From Pohlia nutans (lineage: Eukaryota; Streptophyta; Bryopsida; Bryales; Mniaceae): a stretch of DNA of 64,000 nucleotides. Numbering within the stretch: position 1 is the stretch's first letter; every line of letters starts with the position of its first letter. The DNA lies in assembly GCA_022496805.1 (NCBI GenBank), contig CM040087.1, positions 29,040,253 to 29,104,252 on the forward strand, read 5' to 3'. The notes under the pieces are model-generated. The model was not told the DNA's origin. It did no database searches and saw only the letters and a list, made by a program, of their open reading frames with translations. Positions 652 through 64,000 of this stretch are shown here, piece by piece. Made by a program: the position numbers and the translations under genes.

Positions 652-1170
652 ATTGCGCTGCAGTACCCAGAGGAGTACGTAGTGCAGGTGAAAGGAACCA
701 CCGACACGTGGGCCACGATTCAAGGGGCGGTCGTGTCGTCGTTGACTTTCGTGACGAATAAGAAAGTGTATGGGCCCTACGGGAAGGAGAGCGGGACGCC
801 GTTCGAGAGCTTGCCGGACGGCAGAGTGGTGGGGTTCTTCGGCCGGTCCGGCACTTTGCTTGATCAGTTCGGAGTGTTGACCCAGCCCTCCGATTCTTCT
901 TTTAGTACTAGTACTACTACGACTACTACGACTACGTATACTACGACCAGTAGTTCGGGAGCCCCGGAAGACTTCAGTACTGCAGTCCAGGGTCCTTGGG
1001 GTGGTGAGCATGGCGCTCAATTTTCCAGTGCGAGCGGGGAGCTTACGGAGCTCTACGTCACGTTCACCAAAGATCACCTCGTGGGCTTGCAAGCCGGATA
1101 CTCCCTCGGCACGGGAGCGGACTTGGTTAAGAGTGATCGTTGGGGTGGCGTGACCGGCCCAACTGAGAAG
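652..1170 (+). CDS. Exon 1: jacalin half-domain, Thr-rich linker, next half-domain
   Basis: 173 codons, acceptor gattcgcag and donor gtaatt. Residues 1 to about 78 are the first-part module with Y-P-E-E-Y, S-L-T-F-V-T-N-K-K and the sugar-binding type motif G-T-L-L-D. Residues about 84-101 are a Thr/Ser tract encoded by a trinucleotide run (act/acg, 901-955). From about residue 112 the second-part module begins with G-P-W-G-G. The partner of the initial half lies upstream of the window, so this is not the true first exon of the gene. The G-x-x-x-D motif (Gly, three residues, Asp) is the known ligand loop of mannose-binding jacalins. Confidence 0.75.
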
Positions 1171-4100
1171 GTAATTATTTGTCTCGCTTACTCATTTTCC
1201 TATCAAAACAAAGTTCATTCGCATGTCAGAACATTCATTTCCATGTCGAAACAAGTTCATTTGCATGTCGAAATAAGTTCATCTGCATATCAGAATTCAT
1301 TTGCTTGTAAGTATAAATTCGTTTGCATGTCAGAACGAGGTGATGTGCATGTCAGAACAAGTTCATGTGTATATCTGAATAGGCTCATCTGCCTATCAGG
1401 GAAAGGTTATTTACATTTCAGAAATAATGACCTCAAATTCATGTCAGAACAAGTGTATGTGCATGTCAGAACAAGTGTATATCAGAACAGGTTCATGTGC
1501 CTATCAGAGAAAGGTCATGTGCATATCAGAACAAATTCATTTTCATATCAGAAAGGATGACGTCATTTGCATATCATACAAAGGTCATTTGCATATGAGA
1601 GAAGCGTGATTTACATATCAGAAAAAGCCATGATTCATTTCCATGCATATGGGAACTAGGGTTGTGACGGATGTTATGTGAAAGTGCTGTTCTCCAGATA
1701 ACTTACCAGAATGAACAAAGGCGGTGGAATAATATTAATGCAAAATGAATTCATGGATGTACATACAGATTACGTTGCGGTCTCCTGAGGAGTTTCTGAT
1801 CCAGCTGAAAGGAACATTTGATGTGGTGAATGGGACGGAGGCGGTGACATCGTTGACCTTCATCACAAACCAGAGGATTTGCGGTCCCTACGGTTCGACA
1901 TCTGGGCAAGCTTTCGAGAGCACTCCTGGCAAAATAGTGGGTTTCTGCGGGAGATCAGAATCCCTTCTGCACCAGATCGGTGTCATCACTGAGCTTTCTT
2001 CCGAAGTTCAATTACGAAAGTCTTTCGGGACGACAATCGTCGTTACCAAAAGTGGCACCGACATCCAAGAAAACATCTTACTTTCCGGTGACGGAGGCCC
2101 GGAGCAGAAGGGCCAGATCGTGCAGGGAACTTCCCCTGCACAGAAAGTTGAACATTGGTACCGCGGGATTGATGGAGGCTCCTCCCAGCAATCCACGAGG
2201 GAGGTTGTTGTTCGCCCTCGCGATGAAGGTTTGAAAGTCCATGGCCCTTGGGGAGGCTCTGGAGGGACCGTGTTCAGTGACGGCAGGGGTGAGATTGTGG
2301 AAATCCTCGTCACTTTCGACAGCAAGCAAGTGATATCGGTGCAAGTGAGCTACGCTCATGGCGAGTCCAAGTTCAAAGGCTCAATTCATGGCGGAGTTGA
2401 CGCCAGTGGTGGCAAAACTGAAAAGGTAATTAAAAAAAAGAAAACAATTACAGTCATCATCTAGATTTTCTTCGAAGAAAAATCCAGAACTTGAATCCTA
2501 TATACTAATGAATGTTGTACGTCCTGGTTTTACAGATCACCCTTCGTCATCCAGAGGAATATCTGGTTCAAGTGAAGGGAACCACAGGGAAGCTCGTGTT
2601 TGGTGAAGGAATCACGTCGCTCACCTTCGTAACAAACGAGAAATCGTATGGACCTTACGGCAATCCGACGTCTGATTCATTTGAAAGCCCCGGTGGTCAC
2701 AAGGTGACGGGCTTCTTCGGCAGGTCGGGAATGTTCCTGGATCAGCTGGGAATATTCTGCGAGACCCACACAGTCCATAGGACAGTAGAAGGTCCATGGG
2801 GAGGAGTTGGGGGAGCTTCATTCTACGATGGAGTCGGTGACATTGTTGAGATCGTTCTCACTTACACCGACACTCAAGTTGTTTCGTTCCAGACGTCTTA
2901 CGGCCTAGCTGGACTTGGCTTTACCACCGGATACCGTGGACATGACAACCAAACTCTGAACAAGGTATGTATGATTCCACTCTATTAAAATAATTACGAC
3001 TATATAATATTATCTACATTGATAAGAAGTTTCCCTTCACTTGTATACTTTCCTGTAAAAGCACAACTATATATATATATATTGGTTAACTTCCATGTGT
3101 CAATTATGTTGGAATTTTGATGTTATTTGTACAGATGAAATTGCACTTTATGAATGAACATTTGGTCCAAGTGAAGGGAACTGTGGGAAAAATAAATGGC
3201 AGTGATGAAGTTATTACATCATTGACGTTTGTGACCAACAAAAAAAGCTATGGACCTTACGGTAATGAGCAAGGGCGAGGCTTTGAGACCTCGTCCATTG
3301 GAAAGGTGGTCGGATTTTTTGGGAAGTCCGGTTTGAACCTCAACCAAATTGGTGTCATTAAAGAACCTGTAGTTGAGGAAAAAACCTTTACTGTAGAAGG
3401 AGGCCATTGGGAAAGTGCAACTTGGAATGAATTTTTCTTCGAGAATGCTAGACGAGACACTGTTGATTTAATAGTTGCTCAAGGGCCTTGGGGAGGCCAA
3501 GGAGGTGCTCCCTTTTATGATGGTAGAGGTGACATGTATGAAATCGTCATCACTCACAACGAAAGCCAAATTGTTTCATTGAGAGCTAGTTATGACCAAG
3601 GAGGTGTTGATTTTCAGGCTGACAGTCATGGTGGGCGAACTGGTGCTGTAGAAACTGTAAGTCTCATTTTATTTCTTGCACTCGTCCTTCTCATGTTTTT
3701 GTGTACATGGTGTTTAATACTCCTAAAACCTAAACATTGGACTGTTGGTTTTCACAGATTACATTAGATTTTCCAGAGGAGTATCTGGTTCAAGTCCGAG
3801 GAACGATGAAAACTATTCAACAGGAAAGTGTTATTACCTCTTTGACTTTTATCACCAACAAGAAGACGTATGGACCTTATGGTTCTACTTCTGGACGAGG
3901 ATTTGAAACCTCTCCGGAAGGAGTTGTAGTGGGATTCTATGGACGAGCTTCGGTGACGTCACTAGATCAGATAGGTTGCATAGTAAAATTGCCTCATCAA
4001 CCTCATCAACCCAGCTATGATACGAAATACCTAATTCCCTCCGAGGTTTTGGTTATTCCACAAGGCCCATGGGGAGCTACGCACGGTGAAGAATTCTACG

Positions 4101-7100
4101 ATGGAAGAGGTGACATTGTTGAATTGAACATCACCTACACCAAAACTCACATCACCTCGATTCAAGTCAGTTATGAGCAAGGAGGCACCAGTTTTCCAGC
4201 TCCCCTCCATGGCGGAGAAGGCCCTGAACATGTCAAGGTCTGTAACGAATCCATACTCTCAAAGTAGTTTTCTTCATTATCCGAACACAAAAACTGAGTG
4301 ATAACAAAATTTGAGAAGAATTAAGCAAAACAGATAGTCACTATCTAAGGAGATTCCTGATACAAGTAATTGACATGACTTCTTAACTGACTCTGCAGAT
4401 CCAATTGGATTCAAGTACCGAGCATGTGCTTCAAGTGAAGGGCACTAGTGGAGTAGTGGACGGCAAGCCAGTAATAACTTCCCTCACAGTGGTGACGAGC
4501 AAAACCACGTACGGGCCATATGGTAGAGTGAAGGGCAAGAGGTTTCAGAGCACTCGGGAGGGGAAGGTGGTTGGATTTTTCGGCACAGCAAGTACAGTTG
4601 TGCATCAGCTCGGAGTAATCACATTGATCTTTGCACCACCAGGCAATGGACAATGCATTCGCTGTACAACGCCATATCTGTACTGCTGCAATTGCACTGT
4701 GCAGCATTCGCCGGTACCCAGACCATTCGGACAAAGCTCAGTGATCACTACTTATGAGCAAACAACGTACCCACTGCCAGGCACATCCAAAACTCCAGGA
4801 ACACAAGAACCGAAGGACTTCAAACCTGTCCCTGGGGTGCCAACAAGGCCCAGCGGCACCGTGCCGACCGGCCAGCATCCGGGAGTGCCACAATTTCCCC
4901 AGGTATGACCTAAACCTCGTGCTGGCATTGATCTCCTTCATGAAAATGTTGTCCGTGACTGTAAGAGCGTGGTGGTAAAGCTTAAGAGAGGCTCGCAAGT
5001 GCAACAACATGTCCATAGAGCACCAAAATTAGGGTTCGGGGTAGATAAAACTTCTGTGACTCAGCTGACTGTGAAAGTTGGTAGCAGGAACATGAGACAA
5101 CCACAACGCCCGCGCGCCCTTCGTCGGTCACTCCCTCAGTCTACCCTGCTCCTCCGGGAAAATTCCAAATTCATGACACCCCCACGGCTCCGCCGTCGAA
5201 GGAGAAGGACACGAAGCCAGACCCGGCGCCGGGCCACTCCACGACGAGCACGGGCAGCGGCCAGTTTGAGGATGTCGTGTCCGGTGTCACGAAGGAGGTG
5301 GTGCCCGGGAAGCCCGCGCAACCGAGCAAGCCGGTGACGATGGAGGCGAAGCCGGGGAAGCCCGTGCAGGTGAGCAAGCCGGACACGGATGTGGAGAAGC
5401 CCACTTCTGGCTTGGTGCGGCCGGGCCAGAGCACGAGCACGACCACATCCACGACGAGCACGGGCAGCGGCCAGTTTGAGGATGTCGTGTCCGGTGTCAC
5501 GAAGGAGGTGGTGCCCGGGAAGCCCGCGCAACCGAGCAAGCCGGTGACGATGGAGGCGAAGCCGGGGAAGCCCGTGCAGGTGAGCAAGCCGGACACGGAT
5601 GTGGAGAAGCCCACTTCTGGCTTGGTGCGGCCGGGCCAGAGCACGACCACGACCACCTCGACGACGAGCAGCACGGGCAGCCGCACGTTTGAAGATGTCC
5701 CGTCCGGTGTCACGAAGGACGTGAAGGATCCGGGGCACTTGAAGCCTGTGGAACCGAGCAAGCCCCAACCTGGGTCGATCAAGGTGACCCCTGGCAACTT
5801 GCAGCCGGGCGAGCCCGGTGTAGTGGCAGGCACTCCCAAGGTATGTTGCAGGCCGCTTGCTAGGTCCGGTGGATGTGTAGATTGAGTCATGAGATGTTGA
5901 AGGAACTTGTTGCCTTGCATGTGTGGTGGGGATGCTGGGAATCAGTGAGTCCTGGAGTCGTGGGGTGCACAACGGCTGGCAAGAGCGATAGCTGGTGGAT
6001 GGTCTGGCAGACGCTTTGGGATGCTTTGTAATTGACTTGGTTGCTGTGGGTGGTGTTGGTGGCAGGCCGAGGAGCCGGTGACGAGCACAGTCAGCACATT
6101 TGGGTGGTTTGATTGGATTCGTGGAACTCATGTCGATACTGTTTCCAGCGTTCAAGGACCGTGGGGATCGAAGCAGGAGACCACGTTCTATGATGGGAGT
6201 GGCGACATCACTGAGATCGAGGTTGCGTACAACAGAGATTACATCGTGCGTATTCAGACAACCTATGTTCTGAACGGAATGGTGTTCAAGCAAGCTCCAC
6301 AAGGTGGCCGTGGGGGCGACGTATCCAAGGTTTGTGACCTGTACTGTTGTGTGCGGTTGGATCGGTGTTTGTAGAATTGGCGAGTGTGGTGGTTAGTGGC
6401 GTTGAGAAATGTGGTGGGGATTTGATGCTGAGGCATTCCTGGACGTCTTTTGAGCGTGGATGACTGTGCATGTAGATTTTCTTTTGCTCAAAGTTATTTG
6501 TTATTCCTGAAGCATATGTTGTATTTTTCACTAATTCCAGTGCTAGCATGGATAGCAGACATGGCGACGAGCAGGGGATTGATGGTGGCTGACATATCTT
6601 TGCGGTGGGTGCATTGTGCAGATCACGTTCCAAGAGCCGGATGAGTATCTGGTCCAAGTTCGGGGAACCACCAGGCAGGTCGCATCCGTGGGTGTTGTGG
6701 TGACATCCCTGACATTCGTTTCCAACAAGAAGACATACGGGCCGTACGGGCCGGCGACTGGAGGCTCGCGTTTTGAGACAACCGTGCACGGAAAAGTGAC
6801 GGGCTTCTACGGCAGCGCGACGACTTGCGTGCACAGCATTGGAGTGCTGACTGGCAAAGTGGAAGATCTTCGGGACACTGAGACGGTCCTTGTGCAAGAG
6901 GCATGGGGTGGTCAAGGTGGAGTATCGTTCTATGAAGGCAGCGGTGATGTGGTGGAGGTGTTGGTGTCGTACAGCGACCGCCATGTTGTGTCTGTGCAGA
7001 CAACGTACAAACGTGGAGGGAAGACCTTCAAATCAACCCAGCATGGCGGCGAGAACGGCCGCGGGCCCAAGGAAGCCAAGGTGAGGGGATGCTCTGCTGA

Positions 7101-10100
7101 GTGGTGGGGCGTTGGTGGCTTGGGTTGGCAGGAAAGCAGGCGGCGGGCATGTGCATTTGTTTGACGAGGGTTGTGGGCCTGCATGCGTGATGGAATGATG
7201 AGTTTGGGAACGGGGTGTGCGTGGGGAAGGAGGGATGGAACGCAGGGACTAATGGTTGGTGTGCGTTGTGTTTGGCAGATCACTTTGAACCATCCTGACG
7301 AGTACTTGGTGCAAGTCAAGGGCAGCAGCCACCGGATCAACGGGATCCACATCATAGAGAGCCTGGAGTTCATCACGAACAAGCAGAGCTATGGGCCTTA
7401 CGGTGCAGCGAAGCCACAGGGGCAAGTGAGGTCCACCCAGAAGGGCGGCAAGATTGTTGGTTTCTTCGGGAAGTCAGGGTATTTCGTGGATCAGCTTGGC
7501 GTGATCATCAGCTTCCCGTCGAAGAGGGATGATTTGCTGGTATGCCAGGGATCTTGGGGAGGCCCGGGCGGGAGCCCGTTCAGCGACGGAAGGGGCGAGA
7601 TTGTTGAGCTCGTTGTCAAGTACAACAAGACGCAAATCATCTCGGTCGTGGTGACGTATGAACAAGCGGGCACCCGATTCACATCGCAAGTGCGCGGCGG
7701 GCCGGACAGCGGGGAAACGAAGAAGGTCGGGCTCGTGAAGTTCGAAGCTTGAGATTTTTGGTGTGGCAGTTGTTTTGGGAATTGCAGGGCAGGTGGTCGT
7801 GGACATGGTGGTCGAAATACGAAGGTTGTGGTTGCTGACATGTGGGAGTTGGTGGGAATGTGCAGATTTCTTTCGACGCTGGTGAGTATCTGGTCCAAGT
7901 GAAGGGAAGAACAGGAACCATCGTCCCCGGTGGAACGATGGTGACGTCGCTGACCTTCATCACCAACAAGCAGACATACGGACCATTCGGCCCAGTGACG
8001 GGCAGTGCATTTGAGACCAAGCCGCACGGGAAAGTGGTGGGGATTTTCGGGAGATCAGGGACGTTCCTGGACTCGATTGGTTTCGTCACGGAGCTGCGTC
8101 CGGGCAAGGCCTTGCCGGCGACGGTGAAGCTGGGCCCATGGGGAGGCGACGGCGGGCGTGACTTCTATGGCGGGCAGGGTGACATTGTGAGGATAGTGGT
8201 GTACCACTCCCAGAGCCAAATCCACGGAATCCAGACCACGTACGAACAAGGTGGAGTGACATTCGAGCCGGTGACGTACGGTGGCACCGGGGGCGAGACA
8301 TCCACGGTGCGTTTCCCATTGGCTGACTCTTGTTGACGTTGCAGGAAGCATTGCAGGATGTGGTCAAGTCGGGGCATGGCATGTTGAGAAATGTGTTCAC
8401 GTGAGGAGCAGGATGGGCTGCAGGGTGGGATTGTTTCACCGCATTGTGCACACCTGGAATCTCCAAGTATAAGTAACGAGGCATGAGCCCGTGCATAAGT
8501 GATTGCACAAGTGTTGGTTGCTGAGACAATGAGAGGAAGTGAAGAGAGCATGTGGTGGAGAGAAGCGTGGTACTGACGGAGTGGTGTATGTGGTGAACCG
8601 TGTGGATGCAGATATCTCTGGACTTCCCGAATGAGTACGTGACTCAGGTGACGGGAACCACGGCGAAGGTGGGTTTCCTGGGATCGAAGCAGGTGATCAC
8701 TTCGTTGACGTTCGTGACCAACAAGAAGACATACGGTCCTTACGGTGTGGTGAAGGGATCGGAGTTTGGAAGTCCCGCACGTCGGTTGGTGACTGGAATC
8801 TTTGGCAAGGCGGGCGATAGTCTGGACCAATTTGGAATCTTCACCACGGTGGACTGGGAGACCACCTACACGTACCTGCAAACTCACCGCGTAGACTGGA
8901 CGACGAGCACGACGATCACCACGACCACCAAGACAATTGGGGGCAAGACCGAGACCACGACGACGACGAGCACGGGCAGCATCCAGCACGATGCCGTCCC
9001 GACCGTTGACACGAAGGAGGTGGTGCCCGGGAAGCCGGTGCAGCCGAGCAAGCCGGACACGGATGAGGAGAAGCCCAGTTCTGGCTTGGTGCGGCCGCGC
9101 CCGAGCACGGGCATGTTGGGGTCGGAGAGCACGACCACGATCACCTCGACGACGAGCAGCACGGGCAGCAGCAAGTTTGAAGGCGTCCCGTCCGGTGTCA
9201 CGAAGGAGGTGGTGCCCGGGAAGCCCGCGCAACCGAGCAAGCCGGGCACGAAGGAGGTGGTGCCCGGGAAGCCGGCGCAGCCGAGCAAGCCGGACACGGA
9301 TGAGGAGAAGCCCAGTTCTGGCTTGGTGCGGCCGGGCCAGAGCACGGACATAACGGGGTCGGGGAGCTGGACCACGATCACCTCGACGACGAGCAGCACG
9401 GGCAGCGGCAAGTTTGAAGGCGTCCCGTCCGGTGTCACAAAGGAGGTGGTGCCCGGGAAGCCCGCGCAACCGAGCAAGCCGGACACGAAGGAGGTGGTGC
9501 CCGGGAAGCCCGCGCAGGCGAGCAAGCCGGACACGGATGAGGAGAAGCCCAGTTCTGGCTTGGTGCGGCCGGGCCAGAGCACGGACATAACGGGGTCGGG
9601 GAGCTGGACCACGATCACCTCGACGACGAGCAGCACGGGCAGCGGCAAGTTTGAAGGCGTCCCGTCCGGTGTCACAAAGGAGGTGGTGCCCGGGAAGCCC
9701 GCGCAACCGAGCAAGCCGGACACGAAGGAGGTGGTGCCCGGGAAGCCGGCGCAGCCGAGCAAGCCGGACACGGATGAGGAGAAGCCCAGTTCTGGCTTGG
9801 TGCGGCCGGGCCAGAGCACGGACATAACGGGGTCGGGGAGCTGGACCACGATCACCTCGACGACGAGCAGCACGGGCAGCGGCAAGTTTGAAGGCGTCCC
9901 GTCCGGTGTCACAAAGGAGGTGGTGCCCGGGAAGCCCGCGCAACCGAGCAAGCCGGACACGAAGGAGGTGGTGCCCGGGAAGCCCGCGCAGGCGAGCAAG
10001 CCGGACACGGATGAGGAGAAGCCCACTTCTGGCTTGGTGCGGCCGGGCCAGAGCACGAGCACGATCACATCCACGACGAGCACGGGCAGCGGCCAGTTTG

Positions 10101-43100: not shown

Positions 43101-46100
43101 CGAGCTCTGTGAGTTCTGTTACTAGTTCTGGGCACTTGGTTTATGATGATGTCTTGTCTTGGGGTGCAATGGTGCCCTCGGATATGAAGAAGGCTGTTTC
43201 GGGATTGCCTGGGAAAGGTGCTCAACCTGGGTTGCCTGGCCTTCTGGTCAAGGAGGCTGCGAAGGTTGATGAGCCTGTGACACCAAGTTCTGTCTCAAGT
43301 GTTCCAAGCTCTCCTGGGTCTGATCATTCTTCTTCCTCCCGGTCCTCCAGCTCTTCAAGATCCTCCTATGGTTCTGCTTCTGCAGGATCTGGGGGTTCTC
43401 AGAAGTCGGCTTCTGATTCAGTACCTGGCCTTATGGAGAAAATGTCTAGTTTGACTCCGGTGTTTGGAGTATTGCATGAGTCTTCTATTCCAGGGAGCGA
43501 ATGTATTGGTTTGGATCATGTGACTGGAACCACTAATGTCGAAGGGCCATGGGGTGGTGAAGGTGGTAGTGTATTTTATGATGGGGTAGGGGATCTTGTT
43601 GAAATCCGGATTGCACACACTGAGAAACAGGTCATATCCTTACAATTTGTTTATAGTTCTGATGGCGTGGTTATGGAGGGAACGAAAGTTGGTGGAAGCC
43701 CTGGAGACAAATTTACCAAGGTATGGTTTGTAATCTTGATGTGGATTTTAATTTTAGTTGTACTTGGTATGTCCTGCTTTTGTTGGATTAGTCTGTTGTC
43801 TTGCTTTCGTATGTTTAATTGTTTAATGAAGCGGGTATTCTTTAGATTTTTATTCAGACTTGTTTTTGTGTCCTTGTGTAGGTGGTTCTGAAGTCTGGTG
43901 TGGAGCACATCATTCGCATCAAAGGGACATTTGGTTCTGTTTCTGGTCTCAAAATCATCACGTCGATTACTTTCATTACCAACATAGCTGTCTACGGTCC
44001 TTATGGTTTGAATGACGGGGAAGAATTTTCAAGTTCTGGAATTGGGAAGGTGGTGGGCTTCTTTGGCAAAGCGGGGTCATATATTGACCAGCTTGGAGTG
44101 TTTTCCACCACAATTGAACCTGTTTCATCAACTATTGAAGGTGCTTGGGGTGGAGACGGGGGCAAAGTATTTTCTGATGGAAGAGGTGATATCGTGGAAG
44201 TTAAGGTCAACTACAATAGTCACCATGTTGTATCTGTACAAGCAACTTACAATCAGAATGGAGCTCACTTCCCAGGTCGTCTTCATGGTGGTGATGGTGG
44301 AAAGAGTCAGAGCCAAACGGTACATATGTCTCAACTACTCTATACATGATCGTTATCTCAAGTTTGGAAAATATTTTACATTTTGCGTAATTGATTTTCC
44401 TACACATCCTTGGAATGTTGATTGTGTCATGTCAAATGGTTTTCAATTTTTTTCTGGATGTCAGTTGAATTCCAAACATTACAATAAATTTTAATTCATT
44501 TATGGTGTGTGCAGATTGTCCTAAATTTCCCAGAGGAATATCTTATCCAAGTCCAGGGTACTTATGGACGTGTCCCTTCAGTTGGTGAAATTATTACTTC
44601 CTTGACTTTCATCACTAACGTGAAGACGTATGGCCCATTCGGTGCCGTGAGCGGAAAAGAATTTAAGAGCACTGAAGGAGCACGAGTGTTGGGTTTCCAT
44701 GGTCGATCTGGTGATGCCCTTGATCGCTTTGGAGTTATTACCACCAAAGAATGGCAACATGGTGGCAAGAAGCAAATTAGACAAGTGCTTGCTCAAGGAC
44801 CATGGGGAGGACCAGGAGGGTCAGCATTCTATGATGGAAGAGGTGACATTGTTGAAATTTTGGTCGAGTATACGGAGGAGTGCATTGTTTCCTTGCAAGC
44901 ATCATACGAGCAAGGTGGTGGTGTTTTTAAGACAACTGCTCGTTTTGGTCCTGGAGGAGAGACAGCCAAGGTAATGTATTGTATTGTTTTGCAACATATG
45001 ACACTATGGTTTGTAGTGATAGTTTCCCAGTATAGTCACATACATCTATTATTGTATTTGAGTTCTAAAACCTCCTTCAAGGCACCCTCGAAAGTCAATG
45101 ATTGAATCCTAATATTCTAATATCAATTGTTTTTCAATTTGTGTGTTCAAGTTTTTCATTTTTTGGGTCTTAATATATGACAAATGTTTACACGATGTAT
45201 TGTTTGTCTGAATTTTATCTTCTTATTGCTATTTGTAGATCAAATTCAAACAAGACGAAGAGTACCTTCTTCAAATTCAAGGTACCTTGGGAGACGCGTA
45301 TGACACTGATATGGTTACATCATTGACCTTCATCACCAACAAGAAAGTCTATGGACCATACGGAACTGAAACGGCCAGAAAGTTTGAGAGTAAGTTGCAT
45401 GGGAAGGTCGTTGGATTCTTTGGAAGAAGTGATGAGTTTCTAGACCAAATTGGTGTTATAACAGAAATAACACCAAAGGACTATGAAGTCATCCTCTCAC
45501 AGGGCCCATGGGGAGGGAAGAATGGAAACGTTTTCTATGATGGGAAAGGTACTGTGGTTGGAATCATAGTGACCTACAACAAGAAGCAAATCATCTCTTT
45601 ACAGGCCATATATAACCAGGGTGCTGCCATTTTCAAGGCTGATTTCCATGGAGGACCTGGTGGAAAGACTGCCAAGGTATGCAACATACTAAATTTCCTT
45701 TGGTACACGATTGCCTTGGATAGATCACCTAATCAAAATAAATACAAATGGAACATTCATACGTATTAATCTTGATGTATTGGATATTTTTTTAGTTTAA
45801 GGTTATTAATCCTCAAGAAAATGTATCTTTTTTGCATTTGAAATTATGATTTAGTGTTTGCACAATAGACTAATGATTAATGTCGATGGAAACAGATCTT
45901 CTTCACTGGATCAGATGAAGAACTTCTTCAGGTAAAGGGAACAACAGGCAAGGTTGGTGGGGAGCTTGTGGTCACTTCACTCTCATTCCACAGTAACAAG
46001 AAGGTCTATGGGCCTTATGGATGTGAGAAGGAAAATAAGGGAGACCGCTTCGAGAGTTCTCCAAGTGGCAAAGTGAATGGATTCTACGGAAAAGCTGGAG

Positions 46101-49100
46101 TTTGCCTTGATCAGATTGGTTTTATCACCCAATTTTCTTCCAGCAAATTATCTGATGCGGTTGTTGCTCAAGGACCTTGGGGAGGTCCTAAAGGCAATGA
46201 TTTTTGCACTGGTAGAGGAGAGCTTGTTGACATCACTGTTTCCTACAGCAAGGCTCAGATTATATCATTGCAAATGACATATGAGCACAACGGAACATTG
46301 TACAAGGGAGAGAGGTTTGGAGCGGATGGTGGAGAGATGACGAAGGTGCAAACATTATCTCTACCCACTACTCCTTCCTGAAGGTATTTTCTTGTTTTAT
46401 AATTACCGAAGATATCATTTTTTGTACTGTAGACTAAACTCGTAATAAATCTTTGATATACAGATCTCCCTGAAGGATACCGACTCGTACTTGGTCTATG
46501 TCAAGGGTACGTTTGGTAAGGTGGCGGGTACCTTAACCATAACCTCCTTAACATTTGTCACAAGTAAGGGCAGCTTTGGTCCTTTTGGATCTGCTCGTGG
46601 AACACATTTCCAATCCTACCAACATGGAAAAATTGTCGGTTTCTTTGGAAAGTTTTCCACACAAATCGACCAGGTTGGAGTGATCACACAAATTCGTGCT
46701 GAAAGCCAAGCACCCAAGACTCAAATGAAGAACATCGGCCCTTGGGGTGGACAAGGAGGTGTGGAATTCCATGACGGGCACGGTGAGATCCGTGAGATAG
46801 TTGTCCACTACAACAAGCATCAAGTTGTTTCACTACAAGCTGTTTATGATCAAGGTGGCATGGAGCTTCGCGGTAGAAGTCATGGTGCACCGTCGAAAGG
46901 AAACCATGTCCATCATGCCACGGTGATCATCTTTTGAATCTTTATTCATACTTGAAAAGCTCTAGTGATTTGTTTGGTACACATAAAAATAGTAATTACT
47001 TGCCATCATCTTTGTGGCTTATTATATATTAGTGAATATAATTGTAAACTAACAACAACAGTAAGGAGCACCCTTCTTAGTAGAATAAATATCTGAACAT
47101 GCACAAATAATGAAACTTCAAATTGCACAATTTGTTCTACAGGGAAGGCTACATTTATTCTCATACAATTACTTGTGCTTTTGTCAGATTTCATTTAAAG
47201 GCTCAGATGAGTATTTGACACAAATCACTGGTACATATGGTCAAATCTCTGGTGGAGTTATGATAACATCAATATCGTTCATCACCACCAAGCAAAAGTA
47301 TGGACCATTTGGGCACGAAACAGGTGAATCTTTTAGTACTTCAAGCGGAAAGAAGATCATGGGATTTTTCGGAAGAGCTGCAGACTATCTTGATCAGATT
47401 GGCATTGTGGTTGCTGAAGAACCTCCACACCAGTCACTGATCACCCCAACAACCTTCAAGCCTATTGAAAATGAAGAATGGGTCCATGTAGAAGGACCAT
47501 GGGGTGTGTCAGAGGAGACCAATTTCTATGATGGGCGAGGCAACATCGTTGAAATTGAGGTTGCCTACAACAAGGATTGCATCTTGCGTATTCAGACAAC
47601 CTATCAGCAAAATGGAATTCACTTCAAGCAACCAGCACAAGGTGGTCCAGGTGGAGAAGTAGCCAAGGTAAGAGAATTACACTTCTAGTCAGCTTCAGTT
47701 TCTTCTGTTTGAGACTTTCAATAATTCTAAGATTATATCATCTTCATAAATCCAATTCCAACATCATGCTCCCATTCTCAAATTCTTAAAGCTGCAAAGA
47801 AAACATCCGCAGTGATCATTAGCCTCTTAAGAAATTATCCTTATTGTGGATGTTCTCTGCAGATCACATTCGAATACCCTGATGAGTATCTGGTCCAAGT
47901 GAAGGGAACCACTAGGGAGGTCGCATCCGTGGGTGTTGCAGTGACATCCCTCACGTTTGTTTCCAACAAGAAGACGTACGGACCGTATGGGCCGGTGACT
48001 GGAGGATCGAGTTTTGAAACAGTTCGGCATGGAAAAGTGATGGGCTTCTACGGCAAAGCAACATCTTGCGTGCATAGTATTGGAGTCCTTGCGGAAGTTG
48101 AAGATCTTCCAGACACCGAAACTGTCACGGTCCAAGAGGCCTGGGGTGGTCAAGGTGGAGTACCATTCTATGATGGCAGAGGTGATGTGATCGAGGTGGT
48201 TGTAACCTACAATGATCTCCATATGGTTTCCTTGCAAGCAACTTATCGACACGGAGGGAAGACCTTCAAAGCAAATCTGCATGGTGGCGAGAATGGACGT
48301 GGCCCCAAGGAAGCCAAGGTGAGAGTGCTTTCTTCATTAGTTGCTCGTCCCTTCTCTTGGCAAGATAGAAGGCCGCCTGCATGGCTTGACGAGATTAATG
48401 GGTGTTGTTTGCCGGTTTTGCATTAGTGATGGAATGTGGAATCTTCCAGCGTGCTATGAAGTGCGGTAACTAAGCTCTGTGCAATATGTTTGGCAGATCA
48501 CTTTGAACTATCCTGATGAGTACTTGGTGCAAGTCAAGGGCAGTAGCCACGAGTTCAACGGGTTTAAGCTCCTAGAGAGCCTGGAGTTCATCACGAACAA
48601 GCAGAGCTATGGGCCTTATGGTGCAGTGAAGCCACAAGGACAATTGAGGTCCACTCAGAAGAACGGCAAGATTGTTGGTTTCTTCGGCAAGGCAGGGTAT
48701 TTCGTGGATCAACTTGGCGTGATCATCAGCTTCCCATCCGACAGAGAAGATTTACTCCTCTGCCAAGGACCTTGGGGAGGTCCGGGAGGGAGCCCGTTCT
48801 CCGATGGAAGGGGCGAGATTGCTGAACTCGTTGTGAAATACAACAAGACACAAATCATCTCGCTTCATATGACATATGAACACGGGGGCACCCAATATAA
48901 ATCCCAAGTGCACGGTGGATCTGACAGCGGTGAAACAAAGAAGGTTCGACTTGTGAAGTTTGAAGCTTTTGTATCATAGCATTGGGAATGGCATGCCAGG
49001 TCGATAAGAATATGGTTGTTCTTTTGTGATTGCAATATTAGGAACATAATTCCTATGTTATGTTCTGACTTTGGTGGGAATGTGCAGATTTCTTTCAAAT

Positions 49101-50220
49101 CTGGCGAGTATCTCGTCCAAGTGAAGGGAACAACAGGAACCATAGTCCCTGGTGGAACAATGGTGACCTCCCTCACCTTCATCACCAACAAGCAGACGCA
49201 CGGACCTTTCGGCCCGATTACTGGTATTGCATTTGAGACCAAGGCGAATGGAAAAGTGGTTGGCTTCTTCGGGAGATCAGCGACTTACCTTGATTCGATT
49301 GGTTTCATCACGGAGCTTCATCCGGGCAAGGCCTTACCACCCACAGTAAAGTTCGGCCCATGGGGTGGTGATGGAGGGCATGAGTTCTATGGTGGACAGG
49401 GAGACATTGTGAAGATAGTGGTGTACCACACCCACAGCCAAGTCAACGGAATCCTGACCACGTACGAACAAGGTGGAGTTGCATTCGAGCCGGTGCTCTT
49501 CGGTAGCACCACTGGCGAGGCATCCACGGTACTTCTCCCATTCACTTACTTTCTGAGGTTGCACCAAAAATATATATAAATCTGTCCAGCTGATGTATTC
49601 TGTTACTCTGGAACTCTTGGATATTCTATCACATTGTACATAAGCAGAAGCATGACCCCATCCGCTCGTCTATAACATTGTTAGAATAGTCACAAGAAGT
49701 GATCAACGAAAGCGTAGTACTGACATGGTGCTGACTGTGAATGCAGATATCACTTGACTTCCCGCATGAATACCTGACTCAAGTGAGAGGAACCACCGGA
49801 AAGGTGGGTGGTTTATTTGGTTCGATCAAGTTGATCACTTCCTTGACATTCATCACCAACAAGCACACATACGGTTCTTATGGACACCACAAGGGATCTG
49901 AGTTCGGAAGTCAAGCACATCGGTTGGTGACTGGATTCTATGGCAAGGCGGGTGATGCTCTAGACCAGATTGGATTCTTTGCCACCGCTAGTTCGGAAGC
50001 CACGGACAACTACTTGCACGTTCACCGCGTGGGCTGGAAGAATCCCTGGGGAGAGTTCATCAGGAGGGAGGTCTCTTCAGCTGGGAAGTTCATCAAGGAA
50101 GAGATGGGCTCCTTTGGGAAATTGCCGTCCCTCGGGTTTCACTTGAGCCTCGGCCATCAAGGGGAGGGAAGCAAGTCTCACAAGAAGTCCCCAAAGGGCT
50201 TGAAGGCGTGGAAACCTTAG
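652..50220 (+). CDS. Giant multi-domain jacalin-related lectin gene (57 exons in window, 5' end missing)
   Basis: Consecutive exons share the jacalin signature: a first part like P-E-E-Y-L-V-Q-V-K-G, S-L-T-F-x-T-N-K, Y-G-P-Y-G, G-F-F-G-R-S-G-x-x-L-D-Q-I-G, and a second part like G-P-W-G-G-x-G-G-x-x-F-Y-D-G-R-G-D-I-V-E-I. Every exon is flanked by AG and GT, is a multiple of three (except two disrupted exons) and joins its neighbours in phase 0. No exon except the last has an in-frame stop. The sum is about 12,300 codons, about 47 complete jacalin domains and nine linker stretches. Jacalin-related lectins bind mannose or galactose sugars; most plant members have one to a few domains, so this size is exceptional. 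No signal peptide or start codon is visible because the 5' end is outside the window or in unrecognised sequence. Alternative: several shorter transcripts from internal promoters. The exon calls are strong; the single-transcript claim is inference. Confidence 0.7.
1195..1640. repeat. Degenerate ~23-bp minisatellite in intron 1
   Basis: The intron between exons 1 and 2 is almost filled by imperfect copies of a unit close to catgtcagaacaagttcatt, roughly 18 to 20 of them. They happen to leave a reading frame open past exon 1, so a gene finder could wrongly extend that exon. The spliced reading is supported by the donor gtaatt and by the acceptor at 1767-1768. Confidence 0.75.
1769..2425 (+). 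CDS. Exon 2: jacalin exon with long central linker
   Basis: 219 codons, the longest of the early exons. The first-part module (about residues 1-74) ends S-E-S-L-L-H-Q-I-G, so the G-x-x-x-D ligand loop is lost (His replaces Asp). A poorly conserved, charged linker of about 80 residues follows, then H-G-P-W-G-G-S-G-G with F-S-D-G-R-G-E-I-V-E. The domain formed with exon 1 is therefore probably not able to bind sugar in the usual way, while its second half is intact. Donor gtaatt, acceptor acatacag. Confidence 0.75.
2536..2964 (+). CDS. Exon 3: compact jacalin exon
   Basis: 143 codons, the shortest two-half exon. The first half carries S-L-T-F-V-T-N and an intact ligand loop G-M-F-L-D. Only a short spacer separates it from E-G-P-W-G-G-V-G-G and F-Y-D-G-V-G-D-I-V-E-I. 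Its end departs from the usual H-G-G-x-G-G (it reads Y-R-G-H-D-N-Q). Donor gtatgt, acceptor ttttacag, both good. Confidence 0.8.
3135..3656 (+). CDS. Exon 4: jacalin exon with a remnant extra half-domain
   Basis: 174 codons. It begins M-K-L-H-F-M-N-E-H in place of I-T-L-x-x-P-E-E-Y; the first Met is simply the first exon codon, not a start. The ligand loop is G-L-N-L-N, with Asp changed to Asn. Between the two halves, about residues 84-114 read like a decayed copy of the G-P-W-G-G...F-Y-D-G...D-I-V-E-I stretch, followed by a well-kept copy. This suggests an internal partial duplication. Donor gtaagt; a (ta)n run lies in the upstream intron near 3071. Confidence 0.75.
3758..4237 (+). CDS. Exon 5: jacalin exon
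   Basis: 160 codons. First half I-T-L-D-F-P-E-E-Y-L-V-Q-V-R-G; the ligand loop reads V-T-S-L-D, keeping Asp but losing Gly. A short spacer with repeated H-Q-P precedes G-P-W-G-A-T-H-G, where the second Gly pair is lost. It ends H-G-G-E-G-P-E-H-V-K. The donor gtctgt is weak, the acceptor ttttcacag is good. Confidence 0.75.
4399..4902 (+). CDS. Exon 6: jacalin half-domain, Cys-rich patch and Pro-rich linker
   Basis: 168 codons. Only the first-part module is present (about residues 1-76), with a dead ligand loop S-T-V-V-H. It is followed by an unusual patch of five Cys in 14 residues (C-x2-C-x6-C-C-x-C) and then a Pro/Thr/Gly-rich stretch ending F-P-Q before the donor gtatga. It closes the fifth complete domain and opens the first linker. 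The Cys patch is not seen in any other exon of the window and could form local disulfides or bind metal; that is inference. Confidence 0.75.
5088..5840 (+). CDS. Exon 7: Thr/Ser/Pro/Lys linker exon, left end of the array
   Basis: 251 codons, no jacalin fold. The acceptor is taken as gtagcag (5081-5087); gtag three bases earlier also keeps phase 0. The first 50 or so codons are unique and Pro-rich. From about 5235 the sequence becomes that of the amplified array, with one partial and one complete 210-bp repeat and the common linker end (G-T-P-K before gtatgt). Repeated K-E-V-V-P-G-K-P-A-Q-P-S-K-P blocks alternate with Thr/Ser clusters suited to O-glycosylation. Confidence 0.65.
6066..6329 (+). 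CDS. Unit 1 exon b (exon 8): linker tail plus second-part half-domain
   Basis: 88 codons. It opens A-E-E-P-V-T-S-T, finishing the linker, then Q-G-P-W-G-S-K-Q-E-T-T-F-Y-D-G-S-G-D-I-T-E-I and ends Q-G-G-R-G-G-D-V-S-K. The usual G-P-W-G-G-x-G-G loop is replaced by G-P-W-G-S-K-Q-E, so this half lacks the glycine-rich ligand loop. Intron a-b (5841-6065) is G-rich; donor gtttgt. Confidence 0.8.
6622..7080 (+). CDS. Unit 1 exon c (exon 9): jacalin exon, degenerate ligand loop
   Basis: 153 codons. The first half has P-D-E-Y-L-V-Q-V-R-G-T-T and S-L-T-F-V-S-N-K-K-T-Y-G-P-Y-G, but ends A-T-T-C-V-H-S-I-G, so the G-x-x-x-D loop is absent. With exon b this gives a domain lacking both ligand loops, probably structural. 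The second half, E-A-W-G-G-Q-G-G...F-Y-E-G-S-G-D-V-V-E-V, is intact. Acceptor tgtgcag, donor gtgagg. Confidence 0.85.
7279..7725 (+). CDS. Unit 1 exon d (exon 10): jacalin exon
   Basis: 149 codons. P-D-E-Y-L-V-Q-V-K-G-S-S, then S-L-E-F-I-T-N-K-Q-S-Y-G-P-Y-G, and an intact ligand loop G-Y-F-V-D-Q-L-G. The second half starts G-S-W-G-G-P-G-G and ends G-P-D-S-G-E-T-K-K before the weak donor gtcggg. The diverged homologue at 48497-48943 ends at the equivalent codon with gttcga, which supports this boundary. Confidence 0.8.
7866..8306 (+). CDS. Unit 1 exon e (exon 11): jacalin exon
   Basis: 147 codons. I-S-F-D-A-G-E-Y-L-V-Q-V-K-G, S-L-T-F-I-T-N-K-Q-T-Y-G-P-F-G and ligand loop G-T-F-L-D-S-I-G. The second half has G-P-W-G-G-D-G-G, F-Y-G-G-Q-G-D-I-V-R-I and ends G-G-T-G-G-E-T-S-T before gtgcgt. 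All features of a sugar-competent half-domain pair are present. Confidence 0.85.
8612..10672 (+). CDS. Unit 1 exon a (exon 12): jacalin half-domain plus mucin-like repeat linker
   Basis: 687 codons. About residues 1-80 are the first-part module (P-N-E-Y-V-T-Q-V-T-G, S-L-T-F-V-T-N-K-K, ligand loop G-D-S-L-D). The rest is a linker of Thr/Ser clusters and K-E-V-V-P-G-K-P-A-Q-P-S-K-P-D-T-D-E-E-K-P blocks. It holds three 79-residue repeats (9347-10057) and two 70-residue repeats (10058-10477). It ends G-T-P-K at donor gtatgt. The linker is predicted disordered, extended and heavily O-glycosylated if secreted (inference). Confidence 0.85.
9347..10477 (+). repeat. Nested linker repeats, unit 1: three 237-bp and two 210-bp copies
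   Basis: 237-bp copies start at 9347, 9584 and 9821, each coding D-I-T-G-S-G-S-W-T-T-I-T-S onward. 210-bp copies start at 10058 and 10268, coding S-T-(I/T)-T-S-T-T onward. Both end with the same L-V-R-P-G-Q-S-T. All are in frame, so copy changes alter length but not frame. Confidence 0.95.
10898..15503 (+). CDS. Unit 2 (exons 13-17): four jacalin domains plus linker, exon e frameshifted
   Basis: Exons b 10898-11161, c 11454-11912, d 12111-12557, e 12698-13137, a 13443-15503. It is almost identical to unit 1 except that exon e lacks one C in the run at about 12823 (ggccagtg instead of ggcccagtg), so the phase-0 chain breaks inside the Y-G-P-F-G region. The last 237-bp linker repeat codes K-P-A-Q-P-S-K-P-D before the P-T-S-G variant, a combination shared with unit 4 only. 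Either a real disabling deletion or a base-calling error in a C run. Confidence 0.8.
14178..15308 (+). repeat. Nested linker repeats, unit 2: three 237-bp and two 210-bp copies
   Basis: 237-bp copies begin at 14178, 14415 and 14652; 210-bp copies at 14889 and 15099. Same count as unit 1, but the third 237-bp copy carries the P-S-K variant rather than A-S-K. Confidence 0.95.
15729..20572 (+). CDS. Unit 3 (exons 18-22): intact unit with the longest linker
   Basis: Exons b 15729-15992, c 16285-16743, d 16942-17388, e 17529-17969, a 18275-20572 (766 codons). All are in phase with no disruptions. Four 237-bp linker repeats are present instead of three, the last two being identical A-S-K/P-T-S-G variants. 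One private change, Ser to Leu, sits in the first 237-bp repeat (gttggg at 19021-19026). Confidence 0.85.
19010..20377 (+). repeat. Nested linker repeats, unit 3: four 237-bp and two 210-bp copies
   Basis: 237-bp copies begin at 19010, 19247, 19484 and 19721; 210-bp copies at 19958 and 20168. The extra 237-bp copy fully explains why this unit is 5069 bp long. Confidence 0.95.
20798..25406 (+). CDS. Unit 4 (exons 23-27): linker exon carries four single-base indels
   Basis: Exons b 20798-21061, c 21354-21812, d 22011-22457, e 22598-23038, a 23344-25406. Exons b to e are intact. Exon a, compared with other units, has an extra A near 24220 (cgaaagg), a missing C near 24394 (gtccgtcc), an extra C near 24668 (gccccgcg) and an extra G near 25110 (cgggtgac). 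The net change is +2, so the frame is lost from about 24220 and does not recover by the exon end. All four lie in short homopolymers, which favours consensus errors over decay, but decay is possible. Confidence 0.8.
24079..25211 (+). repeat. Nested linker repeats, unit 4: three 237-bp and two 210-bp copies with indels
   Basis: The copies align with those of unit 2, including the P-S-K/P-T-S-G combination in the third 237-bp copy, but are interrupted by the four single-base indels described for this unit's exon a. Confidence 0.9.
25632..30238 (+). CDS. Unit 5 (exons 28-32): intact unit with the K-P-V-Q marker
   Basis: Exons b 25632-25895, c 26188-26646, d 26845-27291, e 27432-27872, a 28178-30238 (687 codons). 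All are in phase. In the second 237-bp linker repeat GCG is changed to GTG (29269-29271), giving K-P-V-Q-P-S-K-P instead of K-P-A-Q-P-S-K-P. This change is also in units 6 and 7 and nowhere else at this position. Confidence 0.85.
28913..30043 (+). repeat. Nested linker repeats, unit 5: three 237-bp and two 210-bp copies
   Basis: 237-bp copies begin at 28913, 29150 and 29387; 210-bp copies at 29624 and 29834. The second 237-bp copy holds the K-P-V-Q marker. Confidence 0.95.
30464..34833 (+). CDS. Unit 6 (exons 33-37): intact unit with the shortest linker
   Basis: Exons b 30464-30727, c 31020-31478, d 31677-32123, e 32264-32704, a 33010-34833 (608 codons). Only two 237-bp repeats remain; the first carries the K-P-V-Q marker, so the copy that precedes it in unit 5 has been lost. 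One private intron substitution (gaggca for gaagca, about 32744) distinguishes it. All exons are open and in phase. Confidence 0.85.
33745..34638 (+). repeat. Nested linker repeats, unit 6: two 237-bp and two 210-bp copies
   Basis: 237-bp copies begin at 33745 and 33982; 210-bp copies at 34219 and 34429. Loss of one 237-bp copy explains the 4595-bp period of this unit. Confidence 0.95.
35059..39638 (+). CDS. Unit 7 (exons 38-42): intact unit with an extra 70-residue repeat
   Basis: Exons b 35059-35322, c 35615-36073, d 36272-36718, e 36859-37299, a 37605-39638 (678 codons). It shares the two-copy 237-bp arrangement and the K-P-V-Q marker with unit 6, but has three 210-bp repeats instead of two. 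All exons are open and in phase. Confidence 0.85.
38340..39443 (+). repeat. Nested linker repeats, unit 7: two 237-bp and three 210-bp copies
   Basis: 237-bp copies begin at 38340 and 38577; 210-bp copies at 38814, 39024 and 39234. The added 210-bp copy shows that both repeat classes vary in number independently. Confidence 0.95.
39864..43720 (+). CDS. Unit 8 (exons 43-47): last unit, with diverged fused linker exon
   Basis: Exons b 39864-40127, c 40420-40878, d 41077-41523, e 41664-42104 match the array. The last exon (42410-43720, 437 codons) starts as exon a, but after 42728 it diverges. It has single, unamplified linker blocks, a Ser-rich tract (codons near 43325-43410), and then runs straight into a second-part half-domain (E-G-P-W-G-G-E-G-G, F-Y-D-G-V-G-D-L-V-E-I) ending F-T-K at gtatgg. 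The a-b intron of other units is thus missing here. This probably shows the pre-amplification form of the linker. Confidence 0.85.
43882..44319 (+). CDS. Exon 48: jacalin exon
   Basis: 146 codons. It starts V-V-L-K-S-G-V-E-H-I-I-R-I-K-G rather than I-T-L-x-x-P-E-E-Y, has an intact ligand loop G-S-Y-I-D, and a second half G-A-W-G-G-D-G-G...F-S-D-G-R-G-D-I-V-E-V ending H-G-G-D-G-G-K-S-Q-S-Q-T. Codon use is more A+T-rich than in the array. Acceptor tgtgtag, donor gtacat. Confidence 0.8.
44515..44970 (+). CDS. Exon 49: jacalin exon
   Basis: 152 codons. I-V-L-N-F-P-E-E-Y-L-I-Q-V-Q-G, S-L-T-F-I-T-N, ligand loop G-D-A-L-D, then G-P-W-G-G-P-G-G, F-Y-D-G-R-G-D-I-V-E-I and G-P-G-G-E-T-A-K. Both ligand loops are intact. 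Acceptor gtgtgcag, donor gtaatg. Confidence 0.85.
45239..45676 (+). CDS. Exon 50: jacalin exon, ligand loop altered
   Basis: 146 codons. I-K-F-K-Q-D-E-E-Y-L-L-Q-I-Q-G lacks the usual Pro. The ligand loop is D-E-F-L-D, Gly replaced by Asp. Second half G-P-W-G-G-K-N-G-N, F-Y-D-G-K-G-T-V-V-G-I, ending H-G-G-P-G-G-K-T-A-K. Acceptor atttgtag, donor gtatgc. Confidence 0.8.
45896..46345 (+). CDS. Exon 51: jacalin exon
   Basis: 150 codons. I-F-F-T-G-S-D-E-E-L-L-Q-V-K-G start, ligand loop G-V-C-L-D intact, second half G-P-W-G-G-P-K-G-N and F-C-T-G-R-G-E-L-V-D-I, ending G-A-D-G-G-E-M-T-K. Acceptor gaaacag, donor gtgcaa (weak). Confidence 0.75.
46464..46922 (+). CDS. Exon 52: jacalin exon, ligand loop altered
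   Basis: 153 codons. I-S-L-K-D-T-D-S-Y-L-V-Y-V-K-G, ligand loop S-T-Q-I-D (Gly lost), second half G-P-W-G-G-Q-G-G-V-E-F-H-D-G-H-G-E-I-R-E-I. The end is His-rich (H-V-H-H-A-T before gtgatc) and lacks the normal G-G-x-x-x-K, so this donor is the least certain of the group. Confidence 0.7.
47188..47667 (+). CDS. Exon 53: jacalin exon, diverged counterpart of exon b
   Basis: 160 codons. The first half is a normal module (ligand loop A-D-Y-L-D). Its second half, G-P-W-G-V-S-E-E-T-N-F-Y-D-G-R-G-N-I-V-E-I ending Q-G-G-P-G-G-E-V-A-K, is clearly homologous to exon b of the array, sharing the lost glycine loop and R-I-Q-T-T-Y. It starts the old b-c-d-e-a block that runs to the gene end. Acceptor ttttgtcag, donor gtaaga. 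Confidence 0.85.
47863..48318 (+). CDS. Exon 54: diverged counterpart of exon c
   Basis: 152 codons, highly similar to exon c, including P-D-E-Y-L-V-Q-V-K-G-T-T-R, the dead ligand loop A-T-S-C-V-H-S-I-G and the end G-E-N-G-R-G-P-K-E-A-K. The shared loss of the loop predates the separation of this copy from the array. The following intron (48319-48496) also aligns with the array's c-d intron. Confidence 0.9.
48497..48943 (+). CDS. Exon 55: diverged counterpart of exon d
   Basis: 149 codons, the same length as exon d. P-D-E-Y-L-V-Q-V-K-G-S-S, S-L-E-F-I-T-N-K-Q-S-Y-G-P-Y-G, intact loop G-Y-F-V-D, G-P-W-G-G-P-G-G and the end S-D-S-G-E-T-K-K at gttcga. Confidence 0.9.
49088..49528 (+). CDS. Exon 56: diverged counterpart of exon e
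   Basis: 147 codons, the same length as exon e. G-E-Y-L-V-Q-V-K-G-T-T-G, S-L-T-F-I-T-N-K-Q-T, ligand loop A-T-Y-L-D (array copies have G-T-F-L-D), G-P-W-G-G-D-G-G and F-Y-G-G-Q-G-D-I-V-K-I, ending G-E-A-S-T at gtactt. Confidence 0.9.
49747..50220 (+). CDS. Exon 57: terminal exon, counterpart of exon a with a basic tail
   Basis: 157 codons plus stop. The first 80 or so residues match the exon a module (ligand loop G-D-A-L-D). The T-T-S-T linker seen in the array is absent. Instead a tail of about 60 residues rich in Lys, Gly and Ser follows (ending G-L-K-A-W-K-P) and stops. This closes the last jacalin domain and the protein. A possible polyadenylation signal, aataat, lies at 50272. Confidence 0.85.
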   Translation: MSLDFPHEYLTQVRGTTGKVGGLFGSIKLITSLTFITNKHTYGSYGHHKGSEFGSQAHRLVTGFYGKAGDALDQIGFFATASSEATDNYLHVHRVGWKNPWGEFIRREVSSAGKFIKEEMGSFGKLPSLGFHLSLGHQGEGSKSHKKSPKGLKAWKP

Positions 50221-60821: not shown

Positions 60822-60826
60822 CATGC
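60822..60826. other. Target-site duplication, right copy (catgc)
   Basis: Direct repeat of 56318-56322, immediately after the gaca end of the inserted element. Confidence 0.85.
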
Positions 60827-63800: not shown

Positions 63801-64000
63801 GCCAGTTGTCCCATGAAAACCGCAAGCTGTCAGAAGAACGAGGGTAGTCGTCGACACCAAGAAATTGTAACATGTTTTGGAACATGAGGCGCTCGTTATA
63901 AGGTACCGTTCGGCCGCAAGGATTGTTCTTGTCATGGCGGGCTTCAACCATGTTGAAGTCTCCGGCGAGGATCCATCTGCGGCGCAAAAGGGAGCTGCCG
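60822..64000 (-). pseudogene. LINE ORF2: endonuclease C-terminus and reverse transcriptase, with one stop
   Basis: The frame is open to the window end at 64000 and continues outside. The endonuclease part shows A-G-D-F-N-M and W-S-D-H-Q-P-V (EEP family). The reverse transcriptase shows C-P-G-P-D-G, N-W-R-P-I-S-L-L-N, L-D-F-K-K-A-Y-N-T-V and the catalytic Y-A-D-D-T (at 62275-62286). A single in-frame TGA at 62179-62181 splits the frame; the two sides are in the same frame, so it is a simple nonsense change. A 400-residue region typical of plant LINEs follows until the inserted element. Confidence 0.9.

Follow-up and report, generated by a model that had tools for sequence, protein, structure and literature searches.

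We asked whether a long run of jacalin-type exons in the moss Pohlia nutans belongs to a single gene, and how such a gene could have reached its size. The window, the whole stretch of 64,000 nucleotides that we analysed, corresponds to C3:29,040,253-29,104,252 within the 697.8-Mb genome. We delimited 57 exons in the window, from position 652 to 50,220, all of them phase 0 and all separated by GT-AG introns (56/56). Together they comprise 37,003 nt of coding sequence, or 12,333 residues. Length is divisible by three and internal stops are absent in 55 of the 57, the exceptions being exons D2 (module 2) and E4 (module 4). Across 23 distinct exons (x1-x7, those of module 1, E8 and d1-d10), the true frame contains no stop, compared with 176 and 204 in the other two frames. 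The exons and modules are as follows, in window positions.

652 to 1170, plus strand: exon x1, C-half of domain 1, Thr-rich linker and N-half of domain 2
1769 to 2425, plus strand: exon x2, C-half and N-half
2536 to 2964, plus strand: exon x3, C-half and N-half
3135 to 3656, plus strand: exon x4, C-half and N-half
3758 to 4237, plus strand: exon x5, C-half and N-half
4399 to 4902, plus strand: exon x6, C-half and linker
5088 to 5840, plus strand: exon x7, linker only, with 70-residue repeats
6066 to 10672, plus strand: module 1, exons A 6066-6329, B 6622-7080, C 7279-7725, D 7866-8306, E 8612-10672
10898 to 15503, plus strand: module 2, exons A 10898-11161, B 11454-11912, C 12111-12557, D 12698-13137 (frame-broken), E 13443-15503
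12698 to 13137, plus strand: frame-broken exon D of module 2, 440 nt, with a stop in frame at about 12827
15729 to 20572, plus strand: module 3, exons A 15729-15992, B 16285-16743, C 16942-17388, D 17529-17969, E 18275-20572, the linker of E having one additional 237-nt repeat
20798 to 25406, plus strand: module 4, exons A 20798-21061, B 21354-21812, C 22011-22457, D 22598-23038, E 23344-25406 (frame-broken)
23344 to 25406, plus strand: frame-broken exon E of module 4, with four single-base length changes relative to module 1, in the linker only
25632 to 30238, plus strand: module 5, exons A 25632-25895, B 26188-26646, C 26845-27291, D 27432-27872, E 28178-30238
30464 to 34833, plus strand: module 6, exons A 30464-30727, B 31020-31478, C 31677-32123, D 32264-32704, E 33010-34833, E having one 237-nt repeat fewer than in module 1
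35059 to 39638, plus strand: module 7, exons A 35059-35322, B 35615-36073, C 36272-36718, D 36859-37299, E 37605-39638, E having one 210-nt repeat more than in module 6
39864 to 43720, plus strand: module 8, exons A 39864-40127, B 40420-40878, C 41077-41523, D 41664-42104, E8 42410-43720, E8 having a linker unlike that of other modules and ending with an N-half
43882 to 44319, plus strand: exon d1, C-half and N-half
44515 to 44970, plus strand: exon d2, C-half and N-half
45239 to 45676, plus strand: exon d3, C-half and N-half
45896 to 46345, plus strand: exon d4, C-half and N-half
46464 to 46922, plus strand: exon d5, C-half and N-half
47188 to 47667, plus strand: exon d6, whose N-half is homologous to the N-half of module exon A
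47863 to 48318, plus strand: exon d7, diverged homolog of module exon B
48497 to 48943, plus strand: exon d8, diverged homolog of module exon C
49088 to 49528, plus strand: exon d9, diverged homolog of module exon D
49747 to 50220, plus strand: exon d10, the last, with the C-half of the final domain (homologous to the start of module exon E), a basic tail and the stop at 50218-50220

The intron after x1 consists mostly of 22-bp tandem repeats between window positions 1192 and 1627. Among three frames scanned outside the gene, a single reverse transcriptase frame (RVT_1) lies at 62182-63999 on the minus strand; the long frames at 57211-59424 (plus) and 60817-62178 (minus) have no Pfam match.

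The usual internal exon joins the C-half of one domain to the N-half of the next, with the intron falling about 60 residues into the domain. Exceptions are the linker-bearing exons x6, A, E1-E7 and E8, the linker exon x7, and d10. Specifically, A is a linker followed by an N-half, E1-E7 are a C-half followed by a linker, and E8 is a C-half, a long linker and an N-half. When spliced across introns, all 20 distinct domains match the Pfam Jacalin family (PF01419), one of them (x0/x1) taking its N-half from the left flank. Within the module, the four spliced domains span profile positions 1-2 to 135-136 of 136, profile ends having been checked for five domains. As in a holojacalin, jacalin is the sole Pfam family in six exon ORFs (x1, x4, D1, E8, d6 and d10) and the 20 spliced domains, with x7 and the linkers of E1-E7 outside the scan; no Ig or FnIII domains of the titin kind were found in the same ORFs and domains. 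The window holds 47 complete jacalin domains (5 upstream, 32 in the array and 10 downstream) plus one C-half, where the 32 include one that runs through the frame-broken D2 and one pair of halves beside the frame-broken E4. These counts bear out the single frame of about 12,300 residues and about 47 jacalin domains in the original prediction. Its map of 57 phase-0 exons likewise holds for the phases, the stops and the two frame-broken exons, but not for one fold repeated throughout, as exon x7 and more than half of E1-E7 are low-complexity linker.

The gene does not start at 652, as had been proposed, because exon x1 opens with a C-half; the matching N-half is located in the left flank. An N-half profile search of 20 kb of this flank returned one strong N-half (E 2.3e-26) ending at C3:29,039,607, and the corresponding position of the homeolog on C4 also carries one. 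The first exon has an N-half on both homeologs, and on C3 the missing N-half and a plausible start are found about 1 kb left of the window. We infer that translation would begin at the ATG at C3:29,039,410 or in a short upstream exon with a similar counterpart in C17/C18. Such a short first exon (MAFGIAKLLGRSS..., resembling GIALGKMLGRSS... in C17/C18) is likely. With the left flank included, the predicted product of the whole gene has 48 domains, some 12,400 residues and a mass of about 1.3 MDa; by themselves, the 55 intact exons encode 11,499 residues (1,211 kDa).

The 32 array domains are eight tandem copies of one 4.8-kb, five-exon (A-E), four-domain module. Modules start at 6066, 10898, 15729, 20798, 25632, 30464, 35059 and 39864 (spacings 4832, 4831, 5069, 4834, 4832, 4595 and 4805) and are separated by an intron of only 225 bp. 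Outside the linkers, the eight copies (about 3 kb each) are identical except for two differences: module 6 has one substitution in its D-E intron, and exon D of module 2 lacks one base, the only indel. The main difference among modules is the number of 79- and 70-residue linker repeats. Not counting indels, pairs of modules show a diversity of about 8e-5 across 3,041 bases, versus a synonymous divergence of 0.058 between homeologs, indicating that the modules are far younger than the homeolog split or are under homogenisation.

The junctions of the array suggest how it grew. The last 603 nt of x7 are identical to the 3' end of the six intact exons E1-E3 and E5-E7; this identity extends over 298 nt in the frame-broken E4 and only 5 nt in E8. 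Moreover, the intron and exon A that follow x7 are identical to those that follow E1-E7. E8 alone keeps the 3' linker leading into d1, and the single module on C4 has an E of the E8 kind. E1-E7 thus start like E and end like x7 while E8 differs, as expected from unequal exchange between the linkers of x7 and E followed by more rounds of exchange. The repeat periods (48, 210 and 237 bases) and the lengths of the 55 intact exons are all multiples of three, so the frame is kept at each growth step. Because all introns are phase 0 and most internal exons pair a C-half with an N-half, exons can be duplicated, lost or skipped by whole domains without a frame shift. Hybrid domains formed by exon skipping (n = 7) score 157-192 bits, compared with 150-197 bits for native domains (n = 9), using a profile built from downstream domains of the same gene and leaving out hybrids among the downstream exons. 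We propose that an ancestor with about 20 domains, as suggested by the homeolog, had two flanks around a disordered linker zone, and that unequal exchange between the similar coding minisatellites of the x7 and E linkers duplicated the A-E block on C3. This block would then have spread and been homogenised to give eight copies, a mechanism that we deduce from the junction anatomy observed. The locus is thus probably a poly-jacalin gene in which in-frame amplification of exons enlarges the middle.

Amplification as the source of the GC richness of the module was mostly rejected, since the single-copy homeologous module is nearly as GC-rich. Between C3 and C4, module exons A-D with their three introns (6066-8306) have 45 sites that are G/C on C3 and A/T on C4 and 19 of the reverse kind, versus 75 and 62 in single-copy exons (Fisher P 0.045). 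GC-biased gene conversion in the array might produce such a bias.

We used the homeolog on C4 (about 30,467,100-30,488,160) to look for constraint. It contains 20 N-halves alternating with 20 C-halves, making 20 domains with one A-E module, and between x6 and A it carries seven 377-bp cassettes, each with a phase-0 mini-exon. AG and GT edges are preserved in all 20 exons compared (d10 ends at its stop). Across 19 exons, with x1 dropped because it is frame-broken on C4 and x0, x7 and E outside the set, we counted 114 synonymous changes in 2,037 sites and 125 nonsynonymous changes in 6,699 (dS 0.058, dN 0.019, dN/dS 0.33). These exons contain a single 3-base indel, whereas 17 introns have a divergence of 0.071 and 143 gap bases. 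Taken one at a time, the exons have small counts, and a few are weakly constrained: A has 4/59 synonymous versus 12/205 nonsynonymous changes, and x3 and x5 are alike. We also sought codon constraint in the repeat-bearing 5' linkers, and a third-position excess is absent from x7, E1 and E8, where changes by codon position are 5/4/5 in the 5' part of x7, 8/9/9 in 120 nt of the E1 linker and 13/10/11 in 198 nt of the E8 5' linker. These linkers have diverged further than the introns. Counts for the lectin part of E are 5/3/5 over 270 nt. In E8, the Ser-rich 3' linker does show constraint (16/10/30 over 393 nt). A recent genome duplication with synteny between adjacent chromosomes is described for P. 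nutans (PMC9247546), which agrees with the C3/C4 and C17/C18 pairs. The homeolog dS of 0.058, from one gene, lies below the Ks cut-off of 0.1 that the same paper applied before its 0.11 peak (PMC9247546); judging from this one gene's dS, that duplication peak could be truncated.

In the assembled sequence, the reading frame runs for 3,011 residues and 12 complete domains before it meets a stop in exon D of module 2. The gene may therefore have worked before amplification, its amplified copy now being broken and yielding a truncated product of about 12 domains or none, a reading that the frame breaks in D of module 2, E of module 4 and x1 of the C4 homeolog would suit. We consider such decay rather unlikely. 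Exon D is intact and identical, at 441 nt, in the other seven modules, which makes a local consensus error our first guess for the break in D2. Exon E of module 4, which has intact copies in other modules, differs from that of module 1 by four length changes yet only two substitutions, and resembles local sequence error more than decay. Degeneration also fits poorly with eight copies that outside their linkers have accumulated one substitution and one indel, with the dN/dS of 0.33 between homeologs, and with an exon anatomy in which the frame survives skipping of the broken D.

The number eight itself calls for caution. The assembly of this Antarctic moss (698.20 Mb, 22 chromosomes) was built from PacBio HiFi reads with hifiasm and Pilon (PMC9247546). 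These reads average 13.73 kb (PMC9247546), compared with 38 kb of near-identical modules, so the copy number of eight is approximate. It is nonetheless unlikely that eight is an assembly guess within an otherwise real array, because unequal spacings, linker repeat numbers and the few substitutions mark the modules compared, and reads spanning two modules could order them.

We then turned to a more diverged paralog pair on C17 and C18, each with a left flank of seven domains and a right flank of five. These flanks are largely collinear with x0-x6 and E8-d6 and are joined by tandem phase-0 mini-exons with shared splice sites. In the left flank, six of seven best matches follow the order x0/x1 to x5/x6, the second being ambiguous; in the right flank of C17, the order is E8/d1, d2/d3, d3/d4, d4/d5, d5/d6, the first being ambiguous on C18. 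The right-flank entry exon starts at the mini-exon acceptor on both C17 and C18. The middle of C18 has five cassettes with 201-nt mini-exons, one copy having a stop ahead of that donor. In the middle of C17, a start motif recurs about every 401 bp, in 98 copies, of which 97 mark mini-exons of 222 nt, all open (97/97), with a CAG acceptor and an ACTGAG|GTGAGC donor. The last motif copy is the beginning of the entry exon, and one variant copy fills the sole double-length gap, bringing the total to 98 mini-exons. The C17 entry exon uses the mini-exon acceptor and has six Met codons before its N-half. The 98 cassettes lie between jacalin blocks at C17:19,941,596-19,981,000 and, if all were spliced, would add about 7,250 residues of low-complexity linker. 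At C19:18,551,000-18,586,000, three tandem 15-kb repeats each carry an incomplete run of jacalin halves (C N C, then N C).

These comparisons bear on whether the C3 array is one gene, which we regard as well supported, though unproven. Introns between lectin exons cut through domains, exon A has no Met ahead of its N-half, every intact module stays open up to its donor, and the order of flank, expandable linker zone and flank is retained at three paralogous loci. Of the single transcript originally proposed, the single gene is thus well supported by anatomy and paralogous loci, while the full 12,300-residue chain is not, given two frame-broken exons. The linkers of E, x7 and E8, like the C17 entry exon, do contain in-frame Met codons, so a start within a linker is possible. 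Together with the stops soon after the x6 and E donors, which would allow a protein from an unspliced end, and the short three-domain jacalin series on C7 (one) and C8 (two), they could point to two or more adjacent genes, with an upstream x part, a downstream d part and module transcripts. Such a division is improbable in view of the Met-less exon A, modules only a 225-bp intron apart, the recurrence of the flanked linker zone at C4, C17 and C18, and entry exons that begin at a mini-exon acceptor. Even less probable is an array of the Dscam kind, with modules or mini-exons used in place of one another so that chain length varies: the intact exons are all symmetrical and the seven skip hybrids score like native domains, but copies identical outside their linkers would make the choice yield length and almost no diversity. 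From sequence, the moss gene drawn as a 48-lectin-domain chain looks genuine, and the giant protein is its predicted product.

Comparison of the middles on C3, C4, C17 and C18 indicates that four paralogous loci have each expanded the middle, by different cassettes. These loci may form a megagene family with an "exon amplifier" centre of symmetrical phase-0 cassettes (on C3, eight copies of the module; on C4, C18 and C17, seven, five and 98 mini-exons, respectively). Growing by in-frame unequal exchange, very recently on C3, they would encode megadalton, length-variable polyvalent fibres that bind sugars, are translated whole and probably differ between individuals in length. We hold this broader reading only tentatively and think it doubtful in its entirety.

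If translated, the C3 gene would give a long and flexible chain, with up to 48 beta-prism lectin domains set apart by disordered spacers rich in Pro, Glu, Val, Lys and Thr. The description of these spacers as "mucin-like" fits their Thr/Ser/Pro-rich composition only, the repeated part being nearer to a Pro/Glu/Val/Lys-rich disordered spacer. The GxxxD sugar-binding loop, reported for banana lectin (PMC7804308), occurs in 10 of the 20 distinct domains and, by module copy number and counting the frame-broken D2, in 31 of 48, with 17 of 48 having no strict loop. Its presence in three of four module domains versus seven of the remaining 16 makes selection for valency a testable idea. By hydropathy, we found no clear signal peptide or membrane span in two candidate N-termini and the 55 intact exons: neither candidate has a strong hydrophobic core, the N-terminus itself being uncertain, and the strongest 19-residue window over the intact exons averages 1.5, at the end of a domain. 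The first exon of C17/C18 holds a short hydrophobic stretch near its N-terminus. Mannose-type jacalin-related lectins are classed as nucleocytoplasmic (PMC5485960). With the hydropathy result, this leaves a "secreted or wall-bound" protein without support, and likewise a "glycan trap" in the sense of a secreted product. Beyond the domain identity, domain order, loop motif and constraint observed, binding, location and role can be proposed from the lectin family. The protein is probably intracellular, either cytoplasmic or vacuolar, and its most likely function is that of a multivalent cross-linker of mannose/glucose-type glycans, which would act by avidity upon its release or on wounding, stress or microbial attack.

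We compared the predicted chain with known proteins. Searched without its linkers against 5.8 billion predicted proteins (7,989 candidates scored), it gave one match, a 4,344-residue jacalin-bearing protein with 30% identity over 13% cover; this collection is seemingly poor in plants, so absence there would be silent on other mosses. The best solved matches to the B/C domain are PDB 1zgr, a mannose/glucose-specific lectin, and 4mq0, a Parkia biglobosa lectin, with three matching stretches each. We take 1zgr to be a Parkia lectin as well. Both have three domains, whereas the moss chain has 48 with disordered repeat linkers. No jacalin protein with tens of domains was found among the top matches listed from one open-licence literature library. 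Brassica specifier proteins are described with up to five jacalin domains (PMC12894210), and 3 of 32 barley jacalin genes are classed as holojacalins (PMC10706597). In a survey of 145 species, the largest higher-plant protein named is 806 kDa, with algae reaching 2,237 kDa (PMC6681478). If made, the 48-domain chain of about 1.3 MDa would top that higher-plant figure (PMC6681478); it would be a lectin that raises avidity through gene-internal copy number, and a plant example of frame-safe exon amplification with four forms in one genome.

Like plant holojacalins and mannose-type jacalin-related lectins, the predicted protein carries PF01419 domains in tandem in one chain, and by its domains it is a jacalin-related holojacalin with an extreme domain number and an unusual exon-amplifying middle. 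Giant repeat proteins such as titin and nebulin resemble it only in how they work, with many copies of one fold, symmetrical exons and a PEVK-like spacer; their fold is unrelated and their muscle role has no counterpart here, so the moss gene is not a member of that group. Dscam-type arrays (PMC1397879) also have duplicated exons in tandem within one gene. In contrast, the moss copies are nearly identical, which makes inclusion of all of them likelier than a Dscam-type choice.
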